DNA of 26,032 nucleotides, taken from IMG/VR virus record IMGVR_UViG_3300044843_000188, positions 1 to 26,032 of that record, one strand, 5' to 3'. The notes under the pieces were generated by a model that did no database searches, was not told the DNA's origin, and saw only the letters and a list, made by a program, of their open reading frames with translations. How positions within the stretch are numbered: position 1 is the first letter of the stretch; each line of letters starts with the position of its first letter. The stretch is from a virus. Of the stretch, positions 2,679 to 14,036 are shown one piece after another. The translations under genes were made by a program, and so were the position numbers.

Positions 2679-3541
2679 TGAATTCCCTCCTCTAGTACCT
2701 TGATAGCTTTCTCGACTTCTCTGTTAACTTGGATTCTCTCCGAGTTGACATACGGGCAAGACCTCCAATAACCACACCAATTTTCGCTGCACCACCAACT
2801 GCCGGGGGCAGCAGGCGGAAACAGGTTTGCGTCAATTGTTTTCGACACAACGGCAATCCGATTCGCCAGAACCGGCAAGTCAGTTTTGTCCCGAGTCGCC
2901 TCAAGGACTTGCCGCTTTGCGGGGCTCCGAACTCCTCCTTCGACAATGACATCCAGCCGAACCAAAACATCATCCTTTCCTCCGCCCGCCATTGACGCAG
3001 CGTAAAGGGAAAGCTGGACCGACTGCTCTGTGTCAGCAATCGACAGCGACCGCTTCGAGGTTTTAAAGTCTACGACTTTCTTGTCCTCGGTAATCAGGTC
3101 GATGTAGCCGACAATGTCATGTGACAAAGCCGGAAGTTCAATCTTAAAGAATTGCTCAACGGCAGCCGGCTGGTATTCCGGGGCTTGTTGCTCGGCGTGA
3201 ATCTGAGCCATAGAAGCAACAACGTCTTTTTGCTTCGCGGCTGTCTTCTCATTCTCACCGGGTGCAAGCTCGTACTGCTCGGCTTTCAAGCAAGTCTCGT
3301 ACTCCGCCACCGCTGCATCGACAATCTCGCTGCTCGGCAAGTCTACGCGACTCTCAATCTTCTGCCTCATGTTCACCTCCGCCGCTTTGTGAACGGCCCG
3401 GCCTTTGAACATCGCAATCTTTGGAGGAATGATATCTTTCTCGACATACCTCCTCCTCCAAGACTCAGGGCATTTCGCAAACATGTCAAGCTGCGTGGCC
3501 GACAGATGCGGTCGCCTCTGCTCGTTTGTCGTATCGCTCAT
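2675..3541 (-). CDS. RecB/Cas4-like PD-(D/E)xK nuclease
   Basis: 288 residues. Motifs in order: HLSATQLDMFAKCPESWRRRY (start of a Cas4/RecB-type fold, Cys24), GRAVHKAAE (His51), GYIDLI (Asp148), VVDFKTS (Asp158, Lys160) and QSVQLSLYA (Gln176, Tyr180). Together these form a complete active site for a metal-dependent nuclease. Cys251, Cys256 and Cys262 near the C-terminus, with Cys24, could hold an iron-sulfur cluster as in Cas4 and AddB. Start at 3541 has GGAGGACAAACG upstream and overlaps the CsrA-like gene by four bases. It probably resects DNA ends for phage recombination together with the next gene. Confidence 0.85.
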   Translation of the reverse strand: MSDTTNEQRRPHLSATQLDMFAKCPESWRRRYVEKDIIPPKIAMFKGRAVHKAAEVNMRQKIESRVDLPSSEIVDAAVAEYETCLKAEQYELAPGENEKTAAKQKDVVASMAQIHAEQQAPEYQPAAVEQFFKIELPALSHDIVGYIDLITEDKKVVDFKTSKRSLSIADTEQSVQLSLYAASMAGGGKDDVLVRLDVIVEGGVRSPAKRQVLEATRDKTDLPVLANRIAVVSKTIDANLFPPAAPGSWWCSENWCGYWRSCPYVNSERIQVNREVEKAIKVLEEGIQ

Positions 3542-3744
3542 CGTTTGTCCTCCGCCTTTCGGTTCGTAATCTTTTGCTCTCGTTTGATTTTTACATGTTC
3601 AGTTGCTCGGATGCTAAGTCTGACGCTTTTGCTTTCTCCGTCGCAGGTTGCTACTTCGATTCTTTCGTAGACCTCGCCTACTTGCAGAACCAACACGGCT
3701 TTGTTTTTCTTTCCTAGGGTCAACACCAGATTCTTCGTTTGCAT
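3538..3744 (-). CDS. divergent CsrA-like RNA-binding protein
   Basis: 68 residues. NLVLTLGKKNKAVLVL followed by GEVYERIEVA and then VRLSIRATEHVKIKREQKI reproduces the spacing of CsrA: an opening LxL strand, a central strand, then the VRxGxxAPKExxVHREE block. The key Arg of the last strand is kept (IKREQ), while the N-terminal Arg pair of canonical CsrA is absent and there is an insertion. CsrA proteins bind GGA motifs in mRNA leaders, which is notable because leaders here carry GGAGAC. The first 131 bases overlap the HTH gene in another frame. Its stop overlaps the nuclease start as ATGA, supporting real translation. Assignment is by eye. Confidence 0.5.
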   Translation of the reverse strand: MQTKNLVLTLGKKNKAVLVLQVGEVYERIEVATCDGESKSVRLSIRATEHVKIKREQKITNRKAEDKR

Positions 3745-3949
3745 TTCCGTATGGCCTTCCGAGTTTGAATTGTAACTTTGACCTCAACTCCTCAATGTCA
3801 TTTGCGCTCAGCAGGTAGACGTACCTACCAGTTGAGCCAATCGACATGCGGCTCCCGATTCGCAAACGGGTGCAGGCATTCGTAACCGTCCTCCTGCAAA
3901 CGCCCAGCTTCTCCGAAGCCTCAACGACACCAACCATTTTTTCATCCAT
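3614..3949 (-). CDS. small helix-turn-helix DNA-binding protein
   Basis: 111 residues. Residues 5-60 read as a MerR/excisionase-type winged helix: MVGVVEASEKLGVCRRTVTNACTRL, then a wing GSTGRYVYLLSANDIEEL. Such proteins act as excisionases, Cox-like switches or terminase small subunits. The remaining 40 residues (SRRGLRKNRSSNLRRRKQKR) are extremely basic and fall entirely in the region shared with the CsrA-like gene, so their make-up may be forced by that overlapping frame. ATG at 3949 begins four bases downstream of the preceding stop. No terminase small subunit is seen next to the large one, so that role is possible but unsupported. Confidence 0.6.
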   Translation of the reverse strand: MDEKMVGVVEASEKLGVCRRTVTNACTRLRIGSRMSIGSTGRYVYLLSANDIEELRSKLQFKLGRPYGNANEESGVDPRKEKQSRVGSASRRGLRKNRSSNLRRRKQKRQT

Positions 3950-3952
3950 CGC

Positions 3953-5359
3953 TTACTCCCAATTCGTAATCCTCACATTTTGACCAAACGGGCAAACACT
4001 TCTGGAGAACGGGGGTTGGACCGTCACGCAATCAATCCCGAAGGATTTAGGCCAGCGGGTATCGCAATCCGTAAAGAGAATCGCAATGTCAACATCCGTC
4101 TCCTCAACTTCTTTCAACACCGGTATGTGGCTGGTTCCGCCGCCACCGGATGACTCAATCTCAATCTCTGCGCCCTCGGCTCGGAGCCAGTGGCTCTGAC
4201 CGGTAGTGCGGGTGTCGTGATACCAAACATCGACCTCGGTAATGTCCCGAATCTCTTCCAGCATTTCGCGGGCAAGGCTTTGCCATTTGTCGAAGTAGCA
4301 AACGCAAGACCCGCTCACATCAAGGACAAGGGCAATTTTGAACGCCCGCATTTTTGGCTTCGACGGCATGTAGGTTCCGCTGGAAACAGACCGCCGAGAC
4401 GGTCGGCTCCAGTCGATCAACCGCTCTCCTCCAACTCTGGTCGCAAGGAGGTCAATCACCACGGCCCGCCAATCGGTCCCGGTCTTGCAAACGATCAGAC
4501 CTCCCGGCTTCAGCTCAGTGCCAGCAGAGAAGGTGTCGCTCCGCCCTTTGGATTCAGGAGGCTCTGGAACCGAACTCTTCTGGGCGGCATCACGAACTGC
4601 CTCAGCCACTTCGTCAGGAGTCGTCTCCTCCAGCAACTCCGGGGCAAACTCCTTTGCCAACTCCCCAGCGGGGTGCGCTCCACCGTCTACATCGCCGGAA
4701 CCGGCCTTTTGGCCTTCAGTGCCAGAATCCGACCCCTCTGGCAGGCCCGTAGAAGCGTTATCTCCATCGCCCTCGGACGATTCCCCGCCCTGCTTTTCCG
4801 CATCGTCAGCGGGGCTCTCAGGGGCCTCCTCGCCATTCCCATCGCCGTCAGCAGGCTTTTCATCGTCGTTGCCGTCACCGTCCTCGGGCTCTGGCTCGGG
4901 TTGCTCATTTGCCTCGTCTTCAGGCTCGTCAGACTCGTCAGAGGCAACAACTTCTTTGGGGTAGTACTCTTCCCAAGACAAGCCCATCGGGCAGTTGATA
5001 TCGTAGGGGTGAAGCCCTCCATCTGGCAACTCAAATCCCGCATCGAGCAGCAGGCCGTTGATCTCGCGGTCCATCGACTTGTTCGCCCGGTCCCGGTCGA
5101 TGTACCCAGAATCGGCAAGCCGCTCGCAGTGGTGGAACCGAACATGGCACATCTCATGGACCAGCAGTCCAGCCACTTGCCGGTCAGACAACCCATCAAC
5201 GTAGGCCGGGTTGTAAATCAAGACCATTCCATCTGTCGCGGCAGTTGCAACTTTCGTTGTCGGTATCAGCTTCAAGCACCGAATCGCGCAGGCGTCTGCG
5301 ACAACTTCAGGATTTGCACTCAACAGCATCGAGGTCAAAACACGGTTCATTTTGTCCAT
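3953..5359 (-). CDS. HExxH metallopeptidase-like and VWA domain protein
   Basis: 468 residues from ATG at 5359, chosen for TGGAGCGACAA just upstream. The N-terminal domain carries VHEMCHVRFHH, a HExxH zinc motif (residues 68-72), with a DREINGLLLDAG helix after it. This fits the DUF2201/COG3864 layout. An acidic, low-complexity Glu/Asp/Gly/Pro linker spans about 140-220. The C-terminal VWA domain has a full metal-binding MIDAS: DVSGS (347-351), Thr409 in GGGGTSH, and Asp431 in FTDCD. VWA proteins of this kind partner MoxR AAA+ ATPases, and one is encoded two genes upstream. The role is probably as adaptor or effector of that ATPase. Whether the HExxH is catalytic is unknown. Confidence 0.8.
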   Translation of the reverse strand: MDKMNRVLTSMLLSANPEVVADACAIRCLKLIPTTKVATAATDGMVLIYNPAYVDGLSDRQVAGLLVHEMCHVRFHHCERLADSGYIDRDRANKSMDREINGLLLDAGFELPDGGLHPYDINCPMGLSWEEYYPKEVVASDESDEPEDEANEQPEPEPEDGDGNDDEKPADGDGNGEEAPESPADDAEKQGGESSEGDGDNASTGLPEGSDSGTEGQKAGSGDVDGGAHPAGELAKEFAPELLEETTPDEVAEAVRDAAQKSSVPEPPESKGRSDTFSAGTELKPGGLIVCKTGTDWRAVVIDLLATRVGGERLIDWSRPSRRSVSSGTYMPSKPKMRAFKIALVLDVSGSCVCYFDKWQSLAREMLEEIRDITEVDVWYHDTRTTGQSHWLRAEGAEIEIESSGGGGTSHIPVLKEVEETDVDIAILFTDCDTRWPKSFGIDCVTVQPPFSRSVCPFGQNVRITNWE

Positions 5360-6349: not shown

Positions 6350-6631
6350 TCAGCGGCAGAGGTCACAGTCTTTGTTGCACCCACCATCACGACACAGTTC
6401 CAGTCCGTCTCGCATCCTCGCGGTCAGGTCTGCCCACATGTCGGCGGCAGTTTTCGAGTCGCCAGAACATCGCGACTCTACCAAGCAGTGAACCCCCTCT
6501 GACCGCCAGTACTGCCCCATCGGAGCAATCGCCTCAACGACTTGGAAGGTGGAGGAGTAATCATTCACCTCCAGCATGCACCCAAGTTCGCGGGCAACAC
6601 TTTTTACTTCAGCAGGAATCTTCAGTCCCAT
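6350..6631 (-). CDS. small Cys-rich protein, paralogue A (CxDGGCNxDC tail)
   Basis: 93 residues from ATG at 6631, fixed by TGGGAGACGAACG upstream. An earlier in-frame start at 6736 would read through the promoter. It is similar in size and ending to the 93-residue protein at 8476-8757. Both have an AP-x-G-x-Y turn followed by a GxH segment (APMGQYWRSEGVH here), then RM-x-x-G and a C-terminal CRDGGCNKDCDLC. The five cysteines could bind zinc. The N-terminal helix reads as AEVKSVARELGCML. Function unknown. It is the first gene after promoter P1, as the paralogue is after P3, so gene and promoter seem to have been duplicated together. Confidence 0.7.
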   Translation of the reverse strand: MGLKIPAEVKSVARELGCMLEVNDYSSTFQVVEAIAPMGQYWRSEGVHCLVESRCSGDSKTAADMWADLTARMRDGLELCRDGGCNKDCDLCR

Positions 6632-6686: not shown

Positions 6687-6715
6687 GTTATATGCTGTAT
6701 TCGGCACAATGTCAA
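6687..6715 (-). promoter_or_regulatory. promoter P1 with spacer operator motif
   Basis: On the minus strand: TTGACA (6710-6715), a 17-base spacer containing TGCCGAATAC, then TATAAC (6687-6692). A partly palindromic GGAA...TTCC lies 7 bases upstream of the -35 (6723-6734), inside the end of the MoxR gene. It drives the small Cys-rich gene at 6631 and probably the VWA module beyond. Confidence 0.85.
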
Positions 6716-6754
6716 GAGTATCGGAATGTTTTCCAAAACTTTTCAGAAACTTTT

Positions 6755-7750
6755 TTAGTGCTTCTGGAAACCGACAATCGTAGCAGCGTGTCTGCGCACA
6801 AGCGGCTTCAGCGAATCAGACTTCAAAACGTCAGTGCGGCCCCGCTTCGCAATTGCCTTCAGGAACTGTACTTGGAAGGTTCCATCAAGAGCCCCGACAA
6901 GAACAGCGGCTTGGTACAGACGGGCATCTGCCGTATCGTAAATCTCGATAAAGCCAACGGCCATTCTCTCCACCGTCTTTGCAAGCAGGGCTGGGTTCTT
7001 CGGCAACTTTGAACCGTCCTCGATCAACTCCAGCAGCGAAGGGCATTTGACATTTGCCCGCAACCAAGCAGAGAACACAGAGGCGGTCTCCTTCCCAATG
7101 ATTCCAGCCACCGTCTCCTCCGCCGGGGAGAACGGCAGGATGCGACCAACGCGAACCCAATTGCGAGGAGTCGGTTGGTTCCAATCATTCTTGGGATTCC
7201 AGTGGTGGAGCAGCTGGTGGTTCATCGTCAGAAACTCAAGCACCTGCTCGTTGTAATCAGGGCTCCGCTTGTACCAATCCTCCCAATCTGACAGGTTCGG
7301 CTCGATTGTAAGAACCACGCAACGCTCCCGCAGCGCAGACGACAACCGACCTCCACCTGCCCGGTCTGTCGATTTATTCGCCGTAGCGAAGAGGATAGTA
7401 CCTTCAGGCAGCGTGTAATTCCCGATGCGACCTCCGAGAAAGACTTTGAGCAATGGGCTCGTCAACTCGGGGGAGGCCTGTGAGATTTCATCGAAGTTAA
7501 TCACACAGCGTTTGGTCGGCCAAAAGTCAGGTATGTTCCAAGTAGTTTTCTTGGCCTCAACCGTAGGGATTCCTCGGAAGTCTACGCTCTCAAACTCGCC
7601 AGCCCGGACCTCGCACAAGTCAAGGCCTTCATCGTCGGCAATGACTTCCGGGATGGCAGTCTTGCCGACTCCCGGAGAGCCCTCAATCAGCACCGGCAAA
7701 CCCGCAGCCACTGCCTTCTTAGCTTCAACAATCGCAGTTCCAACATCCAT
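6755..7750 (-). CDS. MoxR-type AAA+ ATPase
   Basis: 331 residues from ATG at 7750, preceded by CTGGAGACAAACG. Walker A is EGSPGVGKT (about 23-31), Walker B VINFDEI (83-89), and the sensor-like FATANKSTDRAGGG and ALRERCVVLTIEP follow in order. This is the layout of MoxR-family ATPases, which use ATP to remodel or mature protein complexes and nearly always pair with a VWA protein. That partner is encoded at 3953-5359. The GRIGNYTLPEG segment matches the ATPase's beta-hairpin insert. In phages such pairs have been proposed to act in host takeover or assembly, but the target here is unknown. Promoter P1 overlaps the 3' end of the gene region. Confidence 0.88.
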   Translation of the reverse strand: MDVGTAIVEAKKAVAAGLPVLIEGSPGVGKTAIPEVIADDEGLDLCEVRAGEFESVDFRGIPTVEAKKTTWNIPDFWPTKRCVINFDEISQASPELTSPLLKVFLGGRIGNYTLPEGTILFATANKSTDRAGGGRLSSALRERCVVLTIEPNLSDWEDWYKRSPDYNEQVLEFLTMNHQLLHHWNPKNDWNQPTPRNWVRVGRILPFSPAEETVAGIIGKETASVFSAWLRANVKCPSLLELIEDGSKLPKNPALLAKTVERMAVGFIEIYDTADARLYQAAVLVGALDGTFQVQFLKAIAKRGRTDVLKSDSLKPLVRRHAATIVGFQKH

Positions 7751-7793
7751 CGTTTGTCTCCAGTCAAGAGAAAGTAAAAAACACTCCATCGAG

Positions 7794-7812
7794 CAGCGGC
7801 CCCTCCGCTGCC
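7794..7812 (-). terminator. hairpin between the 106-residue gene and MoxR, possible attenuator
   Basis: GCAGCGG and CCGCTGC form a perfect 7-bp stem with a 5-base loop. On the minus strand six T's follow only after about 12 bases (GTTTTTTAC), too far for a textbook terminator. It lies 43 bases before the MoxR start, so it could reduce read-through or influence translation. Confidence 0.35.
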
Positions 7813-7825
7813 CGGAAGAGCATTT

Positions 7826-8146
7826 TCAACCACGCAAAGCAAACTCAAGGGCCCGCTTCATTCGGATGCATTCTTCAATATTCGCCCGAGCCTCTTTGGC
7901 CCTCGTCAATTCCTGCTCGACCCAATCAACCCAAGTCAAAGAGCAAGGCTTGTCATCAAGCATCGCTACCACATCCTCCGAACCGCGAAGCGACCTCACG
8001 ACCAAAGCCTCAGATGCCATTTCCAACTCCCGCATCGCGTCCCGGAGTTTCCCTTCAGTTCGCTTCAACAATGTCCGCACTTTATCAAGGGCAACGTAAT
8101 TCTTGTCACATTCAGCAGCCAGTTCTTCAGCAAAATTTTCAGTCAT
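7826..8146 (-). CDS. helical coiled-coil protein of unknown function
   Basis: 106 residues from ATG at 8146, placed by CTGGAGACGAACG. Nearly all of it reads as heptad-like helix (NYVALDKVRTLLKRTEGKLRDAMRELEMASEAL, then WVEQELTRAKEARANIEECIRM), split by a loop GSEDVVAMLDDKPCSLT. It is probably a two-helix hairpin that dimerises. It is the first gene after promoter P2, upstream of the MoxR gene, so it may belong to the same functional unit. No family recognised. Confidence 0.65.
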   Translation of the reverse strand: MTENFAEELAAECDKNYVALDKVRTLLKRTEGKLRDAMRELEMASEALVVRSLRGSEDVVAMLDDKPCSLTWVDWVEQELTRAKEARANIEECIRMKRALEFALRG

Positions 8147-8183
8147 CGTTCGTCTCCAGTTGAATTTCCAAAACACTCTCGCC

Positions 8184-8213
8184 AGTATAACACCGTATTC
8201 GGCACTTTGTCAA
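8184..8213 (-). promoter_or_regulatory. promoter P2 with spacer operator motif
   Basis: TTGACA (8208-8213), a spacer containing TGCCGAATACGG, then TATACT (8184-8189; 18-base spacing, or TTATAC at 17). A perfect palindrome GGGAATATTCCC (8221-8232) lies 7 bases upstream of the -35, followed by an AT-rich inverted repeat. It drives the 106-residue gene and probably MoxR. Confidence 0.85.
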
Positions 8214-8236
8214 CGGCATCGGGAATATTCCCAGAA

Positions 8237-8401
8237 TTATTTCGGAAATAATTTTTCATCATTCGCAAGGTCAATTGCCGCCCATCGGAACAGCAACTTC
8301 TCGTATGCCTCGTTTAGAGCTTTAAGCTTCTTCGGGTCGCGGGTCTCCTGAATCATTCGCTCAAGGGTGTCAAGCCGCAAACCAATTTGTTCTTTGTCCA
8401 T
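8237..8401 (-). CDS. very small helical protein
   Basis: 54 residues from ATG at 8401 with GAGGAGACAAACA upstream. The sequence (MDKEQIGLRLDTLERMIQ, then KKLKALNEAYEKLLFRW) is two amphipathic helices, with a short acidic/basic tail. It follows the 93-residue paralogue B and is probably translated from the P3 transcript. Its end overlaps the upstream elements of promoter P2. No family recognised; the leader is the main support that it is a gene. Confidence 0.6.
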   Translation of the reverse strand: MDKEQIGLRLDTLERMIQETRDPKKLKALNEAYEKLLFRWAAIDLANDEKLFPK

Positions 8402-8441
8402 TGTTTGTCTCCTCATTTGTTTTTCCAAAACAACCCCGTCA

Positions 8442-8462
8442 GGCAGTTCTCACACAACTGCC
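8442..8462 (-). other. hairpin between two small early genes
   Basis: GGCAGTT (8442-8448) and AACTGCC (8456-8462) form a perfect 7-bp stem with a 7-base loop, just after the stop at 8476 on the minus strand. There is no real U-tract (GACGGGGTTGTTTTGG follows), so a processing or partial termination role is more likely than a full terminator. Confidence 0.4.
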
Positions 8463-8475
8463 CTCAGGGACCGCT

Positions 8476-8757
8476 TTAGTCTTCCAGCACGGTCAGCACA
8501 TGATTCTCGCAATCCCCGTTGCAACCACCGTCTTTGCAATCAGAGGTTCCGCCGAGCATTCTCTTGATCAGGTCTTTCAGTTCCTCTCTGTTGACTTGCG
8601 AACACAAAACATGCGTCCCGGATTCGCAGAAATACTTTCCGAATGGAGCCCAGATTTCCACCCGAGGGTATGGGCCTCCAAGTTCCCAATCAACAGTCGC
8701 CTTCAAACCCTTTGCTTCCAATTCGACGGCATCAATCAGTTGTCGGACACGACTCAT
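8476..8757 (-). CDS. small Cys-rich protein, paralogue B (CxDGGCNxDC tail)
   Basis: 93 residues from ATG at 8757, fixed by GAGGAGACTTACG. It matches the protein at 6350-6631 in length and in the second half: WAPFGKYFCESGTHVL aligns with IAPMGQYWRSEGVHCL, and DCKDGGCNGDCENH with LCRDGGCNKDCDLC. Here the last motif is followed by ten extra residues (HVLTVLED end) and the N-terminus is shifted. Cysteines probably bind metal. It is the first gene after promoter P3. Function unknown. Confidence 0.7.
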   Translation of the reverse strand: MSRVRQLIDAVELEAKGLKATVDWELGGPYPRVEIWAPFGKYFCESGTHVLCSQVNREELKDLIKRMLGGTSDCKDGGCNGDCENHVLTVLED

Positions 8758-8816
8758 CGTAAGTCTCCTCATTTGTCAAAGAACAATTCGCAAAGCACTC
8801 GCCTTGCAGTCCCTTC

Positions 8817-8845
8817 ATTATACACCGGACTCGGCACTTTGTCAA
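8817..8845 (-). promoter_or_regulatory. promoter P3, fully consensus sigma-70 boxes
   Basis: TTGACA (8840-8845), 17-base spacer with TGCCGAGTCCGG, TATAAT (8817-8822): both boxes match the consensus exactly. Unlike P1, P2, P4 and P5 it lacks the GGAATATTCC-like repeat upstream; that position is inside the 3' end of the next gene. It should be a very strong promoter unless repressed. Confidence 0.9.
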
Positions 8846-8867
8846 GGGGGTCATTTTTGGATTTCAG

Positions 8868-9104
8868 TTACTCAATTCCTCCCGTCAAACTTTCCGACAC
8901 CTCCTCCCACGTTTCTAAAAACCCCCTCCGGTCAACCGAGTAGGCCATTGGCTTGTCGGTCAGAATCGACCAATACATTCCAGTAATCTGCATCGCAGCG
9001 GGTTCATCCCGGAAGAACGCTCTGGCGTTCTCCATCGCCAGCCAAAAGTCGGGCAAATTTTCTTTAAGCAATTCTCTGTTTCCAACACCAGCTTTTTCAG
9101 CCAT
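8868..9104 (-). CDS. small acidic protein of unknown function
   Basis: 78 residues from ATG at 9104, chosen because AAGGAGATTGAA precedes it; a start at 9119 would lie inside that ribosome binding site. The sequence is mostly helical with aromatic residues (LPDFWLAMENARAFFRDEP, MYWSILTDKPMAYSVD). Such compact acidic proteins are common among phage early genes that bind host enzymes, but nothing here identifies a target. It is the second gene of the P4 transcript. Confidence 0.6.
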   Translation of the reverse strand: MAEKAGVGNRELLKENLPDFWLAMENARAFFRDEPAAMQITGMYWSILTDKPMAYSVDRRGFLETWEEVSESLTGGIE

Positions 9105-9129
9105 TTCAATCTCCTTCAATCTTTGGTTC

Positions 9130-9333
9130 TTAGTTCATTTCAAAAGACCGAGCAAAGACCTCGGCCTTGATATCAAAACCCCGGTCTCCGAACTGCTTGC
9201 AAAAATCGTTAATCGCGTCTTGCAAATCCCCCTCGGCGTTAATCGCTTCCCATTCATCAAGGTCCGACTCCTCAATCATCTTGATCAGGCAGACGTATCC
9301 TTCAATCTTCTCTTCAATCTCTTTATCGCTCAT
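9130..9333 (-). CDS. small acidic protein of unknown function
   Basis: 67 residues from ATG at 9333, preceded by TTAAGGAGATTGAG, nearly the same leader as the next gene. Strongly acidic N-terminal two-thirds (SDKEIEEKIEGYVC, MIEESDLDEWEAINAEGDLQDAI) and a more neutral C-terminus. First gene after promoter P4. No family recognised. Codon phase and leader support it as a gene. Confidence 0.65.
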   Translation of the reverse strand: MSDKEIEEKIEGYVCLIKMIEESDLDEWEAINAEGDLQDAINDFCKQFGDRGFDIKAEVFARSFEMN

Positions 9334-9374
9334 CTCAATCTCCTTAAATCTTTCGTAACCCCAACACTCTCAGC

Positions 9375-9403
9375 ACTATATTCTGTATTCGGCAGATTGT
9401 CAA
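9375..9403 (-). promoter_or_regulatory. promoter P4 with spacer operator motif
   Basis: TTGACA (9398-9403), 17-base spacer with TGCCGAATACAG, TATAGT (9375-9380). GGGATGAATTCTT lies 7 bases upstream of the -35, a degenerate version of the P2 palindrome. It lies just after the terminator of the previous unit and drives the two small acidic genes. Confidence 0.85.
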
Positions 9404-9451
9404 TGGTATCGGGATGAATTCTTGAACTTTCCCAAAGATATTTCGGCGCAT

Positions 9452-9479
9452 AAAAAAAGCCTTGGATGACTCCAAGGCT
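9452..9479 (-). terminator. strong intrinsic terminator
   Basis: AGCCTTGGA (9458-9466) pairs with TCCAAGGCT (9471-9479) around a 4-base loop, and on the minus strand is followed by seven T's in total (9452-9458). It closes the transcript of the coiled-coil gene at 9532-10821 and insulates promoter P4. Confidence 0.88.
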
Positions 9480-9531
9480 GCTGGCGTTTTTGTGTCATTC
9501 TGAAAACTCGGGAGGCATCTCATCCCACTCT

Positions 9532-10821
9532 TTAGTGTGCGACCGGAGCCGCTCGGCTAATCTTTGTCAAGTCGCTTGAGTAATACCCGACATTTCCAAT
9601 GACACCTTTCATCTTAACCCAAACCGTTGTTGTCCCTCCAAGCTCGGCAACCACACCTTTCTTTCCTTCATCATCTTTAACGGCATCCCCGACTTCCAAA
9701 ATACGACCTTGTGAGTCTTCGTGAGCCCGCTCCACGTTTTGTTCGTTGTAACTATCTCCTGAGCGTTGCAAAGCCCGGAGCTTGTCTAATGCTTTCATTC
9801 TTTCTGACTGATAATCCCTCAAATCTTCTTCAAGCACCTTAATTTCGTTTTCATGCTTTTTGATTTGCTCACTCAAGTCTTTTATGTTTCTATCCCACGA
9901 TTGTATTTCCTGTCTGAGTTTTTCCTTTTTCTCTCCGCTTGGGTCTGCCTCAACACGCTCAACTTCATTGTCCGACCCGTAGGCTCTGAATGCCGAGCCG
10001 AATGCCTTCATTTCCTCCAGCGACAAATACACGTCTGAGTATTTGTCGTAGTACTTGCCCTCCACCGTGTCGTAGAAGATGCGGTCGTGCCACTGGTTGC
10101 CCGGAGGGAATACCGCCTCTAAAGCTCGGGCAGTCTCCGCCGTTGCAATCGCCCGGTCAATGCGACCTCGATAGGTCGATGACAGCGACCTCGCGTTGCC
10201 GTATTCGTCAAATTTGCCGAGGTCTCGTTGGGCATTTGAAATGTCCATTTCAATCTCCTCTTGTTTCACCTCTAGTTGAACTATCTGATCATCCACGGCA
10301 TCGGCTTCATCTTCTTTGCCTTGCGAGCGCAATTGGTCTGCTTTCTTCTCAAGCTGGTCCATTTTCTTGAACACCTGCTCCAGCTTCAACTCAAACATTT
10401 TGATTTGCTTTTTGATTCGCTCGGCTTCTTGCGGGGAAGGCTCCCCGGCCCTCGCGATTGCAAAATCAATCTTTGCTTTGTAGGGCAGCTGTCGCATTGA
10501 GGAATTCTCTTTTTCCAACTGGTCCATCAACCGGGCATGTTTGTAGGACAATTCGCCGTGTTCGTCGTTCCACTTCTCAACTTGCAATTGCATGTTCTTC
10601 ATTTGCTCGAACGCCTTTTGTGCTTGGTCGTGAAATCTCCATTGTTGCTCCGAGCCGGGCCTTCTACGATTCTCCTCTGCTAATTTGTCTTTCAAATCGT
10701 AGTGTTTTTGTTCAAACTCCAATGCTTGAGCTTCACCCTTTTCAATCTTGTCCTCCAATGCCTTCAATTTGTCTTCAAGCTGCCCGATTTGAATCTTAAG
10801 GTTTGAGCTTCCGGTTGACAT
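9532..10821 (-). CDS. long coiled-coil protein with C-terminal KOW/SH3-like segment
   Basis: 429 residues from ATG at 10821, chosen because AAAGGAAATGTC precedes it; the start at 10836 has no ribosome binding site. Two long coiled coils (about 5-200 and 290-370) flank a 70-residue ordered part (RGRIDRAIATAETARALEAVF, FYDTVEGKYYDKYSDVYLS). The end, ILEVGDAVKDDEGKKGVVAELGGTTTVWVKM, reads as a small KOW/SH3-like barrel. It has its own promoter of a different type and its own terminator, so it is regulated apart from its neighbours. Function unknown; a scaffold or host-interaction role is conceivable. An out-of-frame coding-like tail follows the stop. Confidence 0.75.
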   Translation of the reverse strand: MSTGSSNLKIQIGQLEDKLKALEDKIEKGEAQALEFEQKHYDLKDKLAEENRRRPGSEQQWRFHDQAQKAFEQMKNMQLQVEKWNDEHGELSYKHARLMDQLEKENSSMRQLPYKAKIDFAIARAGEPSPQEAERIKKQIKMFELKLEQVFKKMDQLEKKADQLRSQGKEDEADAVDDQIVQLEVKQEEIEMDISNAQRDLGKFDEYGNARSLSSTYRGRIDRAIATAETARALEAVFPPGNQWHDRIFYDTVEGKYYDKYSDVYLSLEEMKAFGSAFRAYGSDNEVERVEADPSGEKKEKLRQEIQSWDRNIKDLSEQIKKHENEIKVLEEDLRDYQSERMKALDKLRALQRSGDSYNEQNVERAHEDSQGRILEVGDAVKDDEGKKGVVAELGGTTTVWVKMKGVIGNVGYYSSDLTKISRAAPVAH

Positions 10822-10857
10822 GACATTTCCTTTCATTTTCAGTTGAGAACCAAAAAG

Positions 10858-10884
10858 ATTGTATCAAACGCAGTTTTGTTTCAA
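10858..10884 (-). promoter_or_regulatory. possible extended -10 promoter for the coiled-coil gene
   Basis: On the minus strand TGATACAAT gives an extended -10 (TACAAT at 10858-10863), with TTGAAA at 10879-10884, 15 bases apart, or TTTGAA at 16. It lacks the TGCCGA motif of the P1-P6 group, so this gene is probably controlled differently. Confidence 0.45.
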
Positions 10885-10906
10885 ATACTTTCCACCGGTT
10901 CCATCT

Positions 10907-11182
10907 TCATAGAATCCGTGTAGACAAGTACATCCACAACTCGCCCTCGGTGTTCAGTTCAACGCCCAAGTGCCGCTCGACAGCTTTCTGCGCTTCGACA
11001 ACCGTAACAAACTTCCCGAGGACTTTCCCGTCTGCATCGCAGGCAATGTAGGCCAAACCGTGGTAGGCCATTACCCGCTCTACCGAGCCCGCCAAATCAA
11101 GCCCCGGACTACCCGGATTCCAGTATGCGCCAATAAACGCTTTCGAGCAAACTCGCCAATAAATCATTCGCTTTTCATTCAT
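10907..11182 (-). CDS. small protein of unknown function
   Basis: 91 residues from ATG at 11182, fixed by AAGGAGACGAACG; the longer frame to 11383 crosses the divergent promoters. Residues 1-25 (MIYWRVCSKAFIGAYWNPG) are aromatic, then a strand-rich middle LAYIACDADGKVLGKFVTVVEAQKAV resembling a small alpha/beta fold. The only gene clearly under promoter P5, divergent from the glycosylase gene. No family recognised. Confidence 0.65.
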   Translation of the reverse strand: MNEKRMIYWRVCSKAFIGAYWNPGSPGLDLAGSVERVMAYHGLAYIACDADGKVLGKFVTVVEAQKAVERHLGVELNTEGELWMYLSTRIL

Positions 11183-11218
11183 CGTTCGTCTCCTTGTGTG
11201 TTCTCGACTCGCCCCGCC

Positions 11219-11247
11219 TTTATAGTCTGTATTCGGCACTTTGTAAA
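11219..11247 (-). promoter_or_regulatory. promoter P5 with spacer operator motif
   Basis: TTTACA (11242-11247), 17-base spacer with TGCCGAATACAG, TATAAA (11219-11224). The upstream GAAATATTCTC (11256-11266) matches the repeat upstream of P2. It is divergent from P6, whose -35 lies about 65 bases away. Confidence 0.8.
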
Positions 11248-11311
11248 GGGCATTTGAAATATTCTCTGGATTATTCGAAAAATTTTTCTTTCTGTAATTC
11301 TCCTGCAAGCC

Positions 11312-11340
11312 TTGACAATGTGCCGACCTCGGAATATACT
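11312..11340 (+). promoter_or_regulatory. promoter P6 with spacer operator motif, plus strand
   Basis: TTGACA (11312-11317), 17-base spacer with TGCCGACCTCGG, TATACT (11335-11340). The spacer holds a perfect CCGA-CC-TCGG dyad, the most symmetric copy of the motif. It drives the only plus-strand gene, 38 bases downstream. Confidence 0.85.
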
Positions 11341-11377: not shown

Positions 11378-11776
11378 ATGCAAACCTTTTTACCCTACCC
11401 CGATTACCTTCAATCCATGCGGACTCTCGACAAGTCGCGACTTGGGAACCAAGTTTGGCGAGAGGGGATTACTTTGATTCGCGGAAAATGGAAGAACCAT
11501 CCTGCCTCGAAAATGTGGCGTGGACACGAATACCACCTCGGGCTGTACCTGCTGGCAGGGGTTCAGGTTCTCTCAGAGCGTGGCAAACACTACGAGCAAA
11601 CCGAGTTGGCGATTCTGGCCGAGATGGCAAAGCATCGCGACAGCGGGCCTCCTGCGTGGCTTGGCGACAATCGGTTCCACGATTCGCACAAAGCCTCTTT
11701 GCTAAAAAAGAAGTTTGACTGGTACAGCCAATTCGGGTGGAGCGTCCCGGATGTTCCTCTGTTCTGGCCCGTCTGA
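11378..11776 (+). CDS. pyrimidine-dimer DNA glycosylase-like protein
   Basis: 132 residues from ATG at 11378, preceded by CTGGAGACAAACG. The sequence MQTFLPYPDYLQSMRTLDKSR, GNQVWREGITLI, NHPASKMWRGHEYHLGLYL, PPAWLGDNRFHDSHKASLL and VPDVPLFWPV follows the Pyr_excise family (Pfam PF03013) block by block. Members relate to T4 endonuclease V, which excises UV-induced pyrimidine dimers by glycosylase and AP-lyase action. The Glu in QVWREG fits the position of the catalytic Glu. The N-terminal residue after Met is Gln, not the Thr used by T4 endonuclease V, as is usual for this subgroup. Only plus-strand gene, alone under P6. The reaction is predicted from family, not shown. Confidence 0.8.
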   Translation: MQTFLPYPDYLQSMRTLDKSRLGNQVWREGITLIRGKWKNHPASKMWRGHEYHLGLYLLAGVQVLSERGKHYEQTELAILAEMAKHRDSGPPAWLGDNRFHDSHKASLLKKKFDWYSQFGWSVPDVPLFWPV

Positions 11777-12177: not shown

Positions 12178-12612
12178 TTACGTTACGACTGAAAGCGTAA
12201 TTAGGCCGTTTTCTTGGTCGAAAAAGATTGGTGCAGCTTCTCCCGCCGCTACGCTTCTGCCAAATCCGTAATCGATGTAGCAAACCAGCTCGTCATTTGT
12301 TGCGGAATCATCAAGGACAACGAGCGTCCTGTAAGCTGCCATTCCCGTTCCAGAGCTTGTCCAAGTTGGCGATGTAACCATCCAGCGAACGGCTCCACCG
12401 GAAATGGACCAAGAGACAATCGTAAGCGTAACTCCTCCGGTCGTGTATCCGTTTCCGTTTGCTATTTCATTTGCCGAACAATCCGACCATTGGACCCAGC
12501 TTGAGCTTGCAGCGGAACTTAAGAGTCTTGCTTTGAACGTATCGCCGTCCATGTCAAACTTTTTGTTTCCGAGGTCTCGAACCCAGCTATTAAATGGAAT
12601 TGCAAGTGCCAT
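12178..12612 (-). CDS. small beta-rich virion or fibre-associated protein
   Basis: 144 residues, ATG at 12612, with AGGAAAAGTC upstream. It looks like the short beta-sandwich proteins found at the end of many tail operons: FDMDGDTFKARLLSS at the start, a repeated Thr/Ser/Gly strand pattern, and a hydrophobic end FFDQENGLITLSVV. Last gene of the structural operon, eight bases after the 471-residue gene. Probably part of a tail fibre, appendage or host-attachment structure, but I recognise no named family. Confidence 0.55.
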   Translation of the reverse strand: MALAIPFNSWVRDLGNKKFDMDGDTFKARLLSSAASSSWVQWSDCSANEIANGNGYTTGGVTLTIVSWSISGGAVRWMVTSPTWTSSGTGMAAYRTLVVLDDSATNDELVCYIDYGFGRSVAAGEAAPIFFDQENGLITLSVVT

Positions 12613-12620
12613 GACTTTTC

Positions 12621-14036
12621 CTAAATTGGTCCAGAACCAGTGCCGCCAACAAATTGACTCTTTAGCGTTTGCGAAGCAAACACTCCGACTCTCCCGGCAG
12701 ATGGGTTTGCAGTATAGAACGAGCTGCCATTGTTCGGCCCGGTCGATGAGGCAATCGCTGATGCCCCGGCAGTTTTAACAGTCCCTCCACCGGAGAGACC
12801 GCCTCCGTTGATTACCGATGCTGCAAATACTTGATTCGCCGGGTTGACTTCAATCATAGCAAATGAGTTTGAAGTGCAGGTTATTCGTCGCAGCGGGTTC
12901 GGTGCAGTTCGCGTCCCGGAGTTGTTGTCCTTGTACTGGACCCTCCACCCGCTGCTTCCAACCGAGATGCGAATCGGGCTCGTTACATTCGTTGCGTTTT
13001 TGCTCGGCGGCACGAACAAAAAAGGAATGTTGACTTGGAATCGGTCTACGACACTTCCTCCGTATGGCGCTCCCAGTGGGTGTGAAATGCTTCTGTATGT
13101 TTGCGTCCACGTTTGACTTGCCTCAACTACTCCATCGCCTACGACAGACACGGTAATGGAGCCGGTGTAGGGATAGGTGGAGCTGTAGGGCAAATACGGT
13201 GTCGCGTATTCTGTGCTTACAGCCGATTGGATTATAAACTCGCCTTGGAAGTATCCAAGCCAAGTCGAACGGCCTTGGACCTTTAGTCCTCCGATTTGGT
13301 CAATGAACGGGACGGCACTGTTGAACCTCGCGTACTGGGAATTTGTCGTGTACCGCCAGTAAAAATCAGTGTCTCTCGCCCCGGACTGAAAAATCCAAGG
13401 AATGTTCGCTCCTCCGGTCGCAGTGCTGGTCGCCGTCTCGTTGATGACAATGTTGACTGGGCGCAAGATGTGATAGAACCCGGCACAGTCATGGTGCTCA
13501 AGATTGACAAGAGCCCACTTCTCACCCAAGCCCTGCTCTCGCCAGAGAATAGGAAATCCATACCCGGAGTTGTGCGACAAAGCCTCAAGTCGCTGGGTGA
13601 CGTTTGTAAATCCTACATGGGCTTGGTACGGATTTTGATTGAACTCAGAGTAAACTTTTACGGGACTAATCCCGCTGATTTTGCATTGGCCGGTTGCACC
13701 TTTTGCAATCGCCTCTTGGGTAATTGCAACTCGCTTGTTCCAAATACCGATTCCGTCCGCTGTTCCGTACTGGCTTGGCTTGAACCCGTTGTACACAGCA
13801 GATTTGGAGTCGGGTGGAAGCGTCAAACTGGATTGGTTTTGAACCGTCCCGTCTAGCTCGATTATTCCATACTCCGGTATGTCTACATCCGATGCGTTGT
13901 AAACCGTTATCGTATCGTCATCCGGTGGAGCCTCGCGGAACCTTGGGTCTGTGGCTGAAAGCTCCGAGCCTTTGCGTTTTTGCAAAAGCTCCACCAGCTT
14001 TCTTCCGGTCTTTTTGCCAAGTTTAACGCCAGCCAT
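12621..14036 (-). CDS. large unfamiliar tail protein, candidate tail tip or fibre
   Basis: 471 residues, ATG at 14036, preceded by AAGGGCTAAA, two bases after the previous stop. A basic helical N-terminus (KLGKKTGRKLVELLQKRKG) is followed by a strand-rich region beginning ITVYNASDVDIPEYGIIELDG and a long beta-rich C-terminal part with Gly/Ser/Asn repeats ending in SQTLKSQFVGGTGSG. The composition is typical of receptor-binding or structural tail proteins. No lambda J, Dit or Tal domain is recognisable. Placement near the operon end supports a tail-tip or fibre role. Confidence 0.55.
   Translation of the reverse strand: MAGVKLGKKTGRKLVELLQKRKGSELSATDPRFREAPPDDDTITVYNASDVDIPEYGIIELDGTVQNQSSLTLPPDSKSAVYNGFKPSQYGTADGIGIWNKRVAITQEAIAKGATGQCKISGISPVKVYSEFNQNPYQAHVGFTNVTQRLEALSHNSGYGFPILWREQGLGEKWALVNLEHHDCAGFYHILRPVNIVINETATSTATGGANIPWIFQSGARDTDFYWRYTTNSQYARFNSAVPFIDQIGGLKVQGRSTWLGYFQGEFIIQSAVSTEYATPYLPYSSTYPYTGSITVSVVGDGVVEASQTWTQTYRSISHPLGAPYGGSVVDRFQVNIPFLFVPPSKNATNVTSPIRISVGSSGWRVQYKDNNSGTRTAPNPLRRITCTSNSFAMIEVNPANQVFAASVINGGGLSGGGTVKTAGASAIASSTGPNNGSSFYTANPSAGRVGVFASQTLKSQFVGGTGSGPI

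Follow-up and report, generated by a model that had tools for sequence, protein, structure and literature searches.

A conserved site in the spacers of six phage promoters as a putative dispersed operator

All six near-consensus sigma-70-like promoters (P1 to P6) in a genome fragment (about 26 kb) of an uncultured phage carried the word TGCCGA in the same register between their -35 and -10 boxes. The fragment, virus record IMGVR_UViG_3300044843_000188, was analyzed over its whole length of 26,032 bases (referred to as the window). We consider it probable (roughly 60%) that a single protein recognizing this site occludes these strong promoters of host RNA polymerase; it would most likely be a repressor whose gene belongs to the phage but lies beyond the fragment. 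TGCCGA-N3-C-N-G would then be a putative operator in the spacer of each promoter; with one phage-made DNA-binding protein sitting there, host RNA polymerase would be excluded from all six early promoters together. Without this protein, as in a newly infected cell or, should the phage be temperate, after induction, transcription of the six units would begin at the same time. An earlier note on this DNA had proposed that one phage-encoded protein binds the same site at each promoter, as a repressor or an activator: a single recognized site under selection was supported by the evidence below, while we infer that a protein binds there, that it represses, that the phage encodes it and that the phage is temperate.

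Six promoters and the placement of TGCCGA

The positions, boxes and spacer lengths that the earlier note had given for the six promoters were all re-found (Table 1). The boxes had 10 to 12 of 12 consensus bases, with a spacer of 17 bp in five promoters and 18 bp in P2, and a separate scan of the whole record for TTGACA/TATAAT pairs returned them as its only near-consensus sigma-70-like promoters. In 200 first-order Markov resamples, equally strict promoters occurred at a mean of 0.055 per record (maximum, 1), and a spacer word common to promoters never appeared. TGCCGA was present in 6/6 spacers, always at spacer positions 4 to 9; the longer word claimed for four promoters (TGCCGAATACNG) was confirmed in P1, P2, P4 and P5, and the symmetry claimed for three was found as CCG-N4-CGG in P2, P3 and P6.

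The chance frequency of TGCCGA, on which the case had been made to depend, gave a divided answer. The hexamer alone was not enriched in the record (45 copies vs 42.2 expected under a fourth-order model), whereas the composite with the -35 box was restricted to the six promoters: TTKACA-N3-TGCCGA had six occurrences in the record, which were those of P1 to P5 (minus strand) and P6 (plus strand). In the whole record, TTKACANNNTGCCGA had 6 exact matches and no site with one mismatch, and its backward-read control had no match. When up to two mismatches to TTKACA-N3-TGCCGA were allowed, 12 sites were found against 4.5 expected, the surplus being the six exact sites. The signal is therefore the placement of TGCCGA and not its abundance, and a record-wide count of the hexamer would have led to the finding being wrongly discarded. 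In a scan with a spacer matrix, P1 to P6 scored above everything else (17.6 vs 13.3 bits), and no non-promoter site in the record reached a similar score, i.e., there were no stoperator-like sites in the fragment. When each spacer was left out of the matrix in turn, it still ranked 4th to 10th among ~52,000 positions, immediately after the other five or close to them.

Table 1. Promoters, transcription units and other features discussed in the text (positions in the window)
Feature	Position (strand)	Boxes and spacer, or evidence	TGCCGA	Remark
P1	6715-6687 (-)	TTGACA-TTGTGCCGAATACAGCA-TATAAC, 17 bp spacer	6706-6701	
P2	8213-8184 (-)	TTGACA-AAGTGCCGAATACGGTGT-TATACT, 18 bp spacer	8204-8199	
P3	8845-8817 (-)	TTGACA-AAGTGCCGAGTCCGGTG-TATAAT, 17 bp spacer	8836-8831	12/12 consensus
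P4	9403-9375 (-)	TTGACA-ATCTGCCGAATACAGAA-TATAGT, 17 bp spacer	9394-9389	
P5	11247-11219 (-)	TTTACA-AAGTGCCGAATACAGAC-TATAAA, 17 bp spacer	11238-11233	
P6	11312-11340 (+)	TTGACA-ATGTGCCGACCTCGGAA-TATACT, 17 bp spacer	11321-11326	divergent from P5
P1 unit	6350-6631 (-)			probably continues to helicase loader
P2 unit	7826-8146 (-), then 6755-7750 (-)			second gene, MoxR-like AAA ATPase
P3 unit	8476-8757 (-), then 8237-8401			
P4 unit	9130-9333 (-), then 8868-9104			
P5 unit	10907-11182 (-)			
P6 unit	11378-11776 (+)	PF03013, E 2e-9		pyrimidine dimer DNA glycosylase-like gene
Terminator-like element	9479-9458 (-)	intrinsic-type hairpin and T run		directly upstream of P4
Starts with common translation leader	6254 (-), 6631 (-), 7750 (-), 8146 (-), 8401 (-), 8757 (-), 11182 (-), 11378 (+)	GGAGAC-N2-AC-[GA]-ATG		
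CCGAT(A/G)C upstream of -35	6716-6724 (P1), 8214-8222 (P2), 9404-9412 (P4)			
Small winged-helix ORF	3614-3949 (-)	HTH_17, E 0.021 (below cut-off); RacA 5i44, E 0.017		only HTH candidate in record; downstream of P1
ORF tried as CsrA	3538-3744 (-)	PF02599, E 1.7e-4 (sub-threshold)		rejected
Metallopeptidase/VWA gene	3953-5359 (-)	DUF2201		
tRNA-Ala (TGC)	12562-12640 (-)	ARAGORN		overlaps ends of two ORFs; probably false positive

In each unit, 36 to 59 bases separated the promoter from the start codon of the leading gene downstream. The strong minus-strand terminator separates P4 from the preceding gene, so P4 starts a separate transcription unit, and the earlier description of a regulon dispersed over separate early units was borne out. 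The genes behind P1 included the metallopeptidase/VWA gene, the HTH ORF, an exonuclease and a DnaC-like helicase loader; the metallopeptidase/VWA protein is encoded in the same early region as the MoxR-like AAA ATPase. Elsewhere the record mostly encoded head and tail proteins, among them portal and capsid, from the minus strand. Based on this gene content, the promoter-driven units are probably early genes.

A translation leader, GGAGAC-N2-AC-[GA]-ATG, was common to eight early genes (exactly 8 matches, none elsewhere in the window), including second-in-unit genes without a promoter of their own. A portable early-gene leader with two layers, the promoter operator and this extended ribosome-binding leader (GGAGAC-N2-AC-R-ATG), may be imagined, and we regard it as a long shot; if true, phage proteins would coordinate both the transcription and the translation of scattered units, in a phage group (probably of Planctomycetota) in which phage regulation is hardly known.

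Core and symmetry of the spacer site

Alignment of the six promoters gave the invariant columns TT-ACA, spacer positions 4 to 9 (TGCCGA), spacer position 13 (C) and spacer position 15 (G), with one further invariant T where a 17 bp spacer would place the first base of the -10 box. The invariant core, TTKACA-N3-TGCCGA-N3-C-N-G, was thus longer than the word first noticed. The invariant C and G in the right half were the mirror partners of the invariant G and C in the left half, giving a weak dyad of the TGCCG-N4-CGGCA type centered on the middle of the spacer, which reads TGCCG-N4-(C)(A/G)(G)NN. The symmetry was imperfect (19/30 outer positions paired), and 528 of 40,320 orders of the right-hand columns reached the observed pairing in a column-permutation test (p = 0.013). 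From this pattern, the site could plausibly be a 5-4-5 operator for a dimer, its left half strong and its right half weak; alternatively, by analogy with phage L5, it may be asymmetric and read by a monomer. In P1, P2 and P4, CCGAT(A/G)C was found just upstream of the -35 box, ~20 bp before the spacer CCGAATAC; it is possibly a second half-site, or merely part of a copied leader.

Alternative readings and candidate binders

The capsid protein had a full-length match in a genome of Planctomycetota (G535; E 6.5e-109), and the head protein was 38% identical in G535 and 48% in G202 and G529, also Planctomycetota, the only bacterial genomes compared through these two proteins. The best match among 50,697 phage records (E 1e-48) was weaker than those in Planctomycetota, in databases that differ in size. 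Planctomycetota were tentatively assigned as the host group from these matches.

This assignment bears on an unlikely alternative, in which the site is bound by a host repressor, such as LexA or a different regulator of stress responses, and the early genes obey a host signal. P6 precedes the pyrimidine dimer glycosylase-like gene, which would fit an SOS link, and the putative 5-4-5 layout is generally like that of LexA-type and CI-type operators. However, the upstream regions of 22 lexA genes of the likely host family (itself tentatively assigned) had no TGCCG site in common and lacked the composite site, and several of them had GCGAACTG-like words instead. In 170 genomes of one planctomycete family, that of G202, TTGACANNNTGCCGANNNC matched 43 times and its backward-read control 36 times; therefore, there was no host regulon with the composite site in that family. 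Across 84,980 species genomes, the full pattern plus TATA was present at only 8 loci, none of them tied to this phage. Two, in Planctomycetota, were located upstream of sodA and, against a host repressor, spaced the symmetric bases differently despite having a -10 box. Two others, in Clostridia/Christensenella, had TGCCG-ATTA/AAAA-CGGCA near an excisionase-like HTH gene. In these two (4156 on the minus strand of L133 and 489 on the plus strand of L134), TTGACA-N3-TGCCG-N4-CGGCA-TATAAT was positioned upstream of that gene, and the spacer formed a separate perfect palindrome within the promoter.

It is also improbable that no regulator is involved and that the spacer word was carried along as a passenger when copies of a strong promoter cassette arose in the phage genome, although copying itself left traces. 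P1, P2, P4 and P5 were 61 to 72% identical to one another over 76 nt, and hence the six sites are not fully independent; part of this likeness was probably inherited from copied leaders, and copying of the translation leader common to the eight early genes probably happened. The genes after P1 and P3 were paralogue-like, each with a cysteine-rich DGGCNxDC near its end, which suggests duplication of a whole leader plus gene. P3 and P6, on the other hand, had flanks at chance level: their identity with the other promoters was 0.27 at -80 to -41 and 0.21 at -40 to -21 (both counted from the -35 box) and 0.34 directly upstream of the -35 box, i.e., 0.21 to 0.34 overall, yet identity in TGCCGA was 1.00 and C-N-G was also perfect, while the adjoining spacer columns varied. 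Since P3 and P6 have an intact core without homology in their flanks, cassette copying alone is insufficient, and this comparison indicates that the core is under selection independently of flank homology.

The remaining two alternatives concern promoter strength. A phage activator or polymerase-modifying protein that reads the site and switches the promoters on would agree with the gene content, by which all six promoters drive probable early genes in concert. We consider this quite improbable: early genes must fire ahead of phage protein synthesis, and neither the boxes nor their spacing depart much from consensus. MerR-type activation requires overlong spacers of 19 to 20 bp, a feature absent here, where spacers are 17 bp (five) or 18 bp (one). 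A repressor is preferred over an activator because near-consensus boxes with 17 bp spacers (12/12 in P3) need no activator. Least of all do we favor the spacer word as an intrinsic promoter feature liked by the host housekeeping polymerase, for which its constant register relative to both boxes would speak, since TTGACA-N3-TGCCGA-N3-C was not enriched in host-family genomes and the full pattern with TATA was so rare in the species genomes.

The preferred reading, a phage repressor, has against it that no member of a repressor family was found among the scanned ORFs of the 26 kb fragment. This included an L5-type two-domain repressor gene, which could be encoded outside the fragment, a C1-like protein and a recombinase-fold repressor. 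Neither an integrase or other lysogeny gene nor a terminase or lysis gene was identified in the fragment. The small winged-helix ORF may be a MerR/Xis-like protein, as weakly supported by its profile match and by the best structure match of its model (Table 1); it had no homologues in 101 genomes. It is a candidate regulator only, and nothing connects it to the spacer site. The single-sequence model of the ORF tried as CsrA was all-beta, but matched no CsrA structure.

No other genome with such a promoter set was found in IMG/VR (pattern and protein scans) or in the 84,980 species genomes (pattern scan); because these searches may omit near-identical records, this indicates the absence of moderately diverged relatives from the collections. 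When IMG/VR was scanned for the motif in three versions, only contigs with a single match came up, consistent with chance. The sole full-pattern match in IMG/VR, the same phage sequence present twice (L126/L127), was located at a gene end upstream of a clamp-loader-like gene; it had no sister sites and was rejected. No relative was found through the AAA ATPase, and the capsid led only to this same phage, on a 6 kb contig. Seven prophage relatives in Planctomycetota shared head genes (G202, G529, G535, G464, G400, G295 and G205), while the early region was not shared by them and they had no common spacer motif; an early-gene match in G535 was inside a glycosyltransferase-like ORF and judged spurious. 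A further point against the preferred reading is that these searches gave no relative in which the site might be followed together with a repressor.

For this uncultured phage, which probably infects Planctomycetota, the site is a concrete and testable candidate operator, and the literature searched contained no repressor-operator pair for phages of this group. It may be used as bait for the repressor, and for grouping related phages by immunity.

Comparison with known dispersed operators

The general hallmark of dispersed operators, the same short site in a fixed register at several phage promoters, was found at 6/6 promoters. CI operators of the P22/434/lambda type are short dyads overlapping an early promoter, which the possible 5-4-5 dyad resembles; however, they are clustered at few promoters beside the repressor gene, whereas single sites with a weak dyad were found here at six dispersed promoters.

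In phage P1, one repressor (C1) acts on 22 asymmetric 17 bp operators dispersed over the genome (PMC8546580). The likeness is in one short site repeated across a genome; the sequence differs, and here there are only six sites, all in promoter spacers. Repressors of cluster A mycobacteriophages (L5) have 20 to 30 oriented sites, with one operator within the early promoter (PMC9283540, PMC6550527). A short, one-directional site in fixed orientation to transcription is common to both, but most L5 sites are away from promoters and block elongation, while all six sites here are inside promoters; stoperator-like sites outside promoters along transcribed intergenic regions were not seen in the fragment, where the matrix scan left a gap below the six. 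SPBRE of phage SPbeta, a repeated element at the promoters of many small and mostly uncharacterized phage units, was spotted in silico and shown to be the site of the master repressor (MrpR) 24 years later (PMC10516654). Although SPBRE is a different 15 bp motif in a different host and phage, this case illustrates that in silico elements of such a type can prove to be master-repressor sites. The site described here resembles these systems, with membership in none established: the kind of control, by dispersed operators, is known, and the site and the phage are new.
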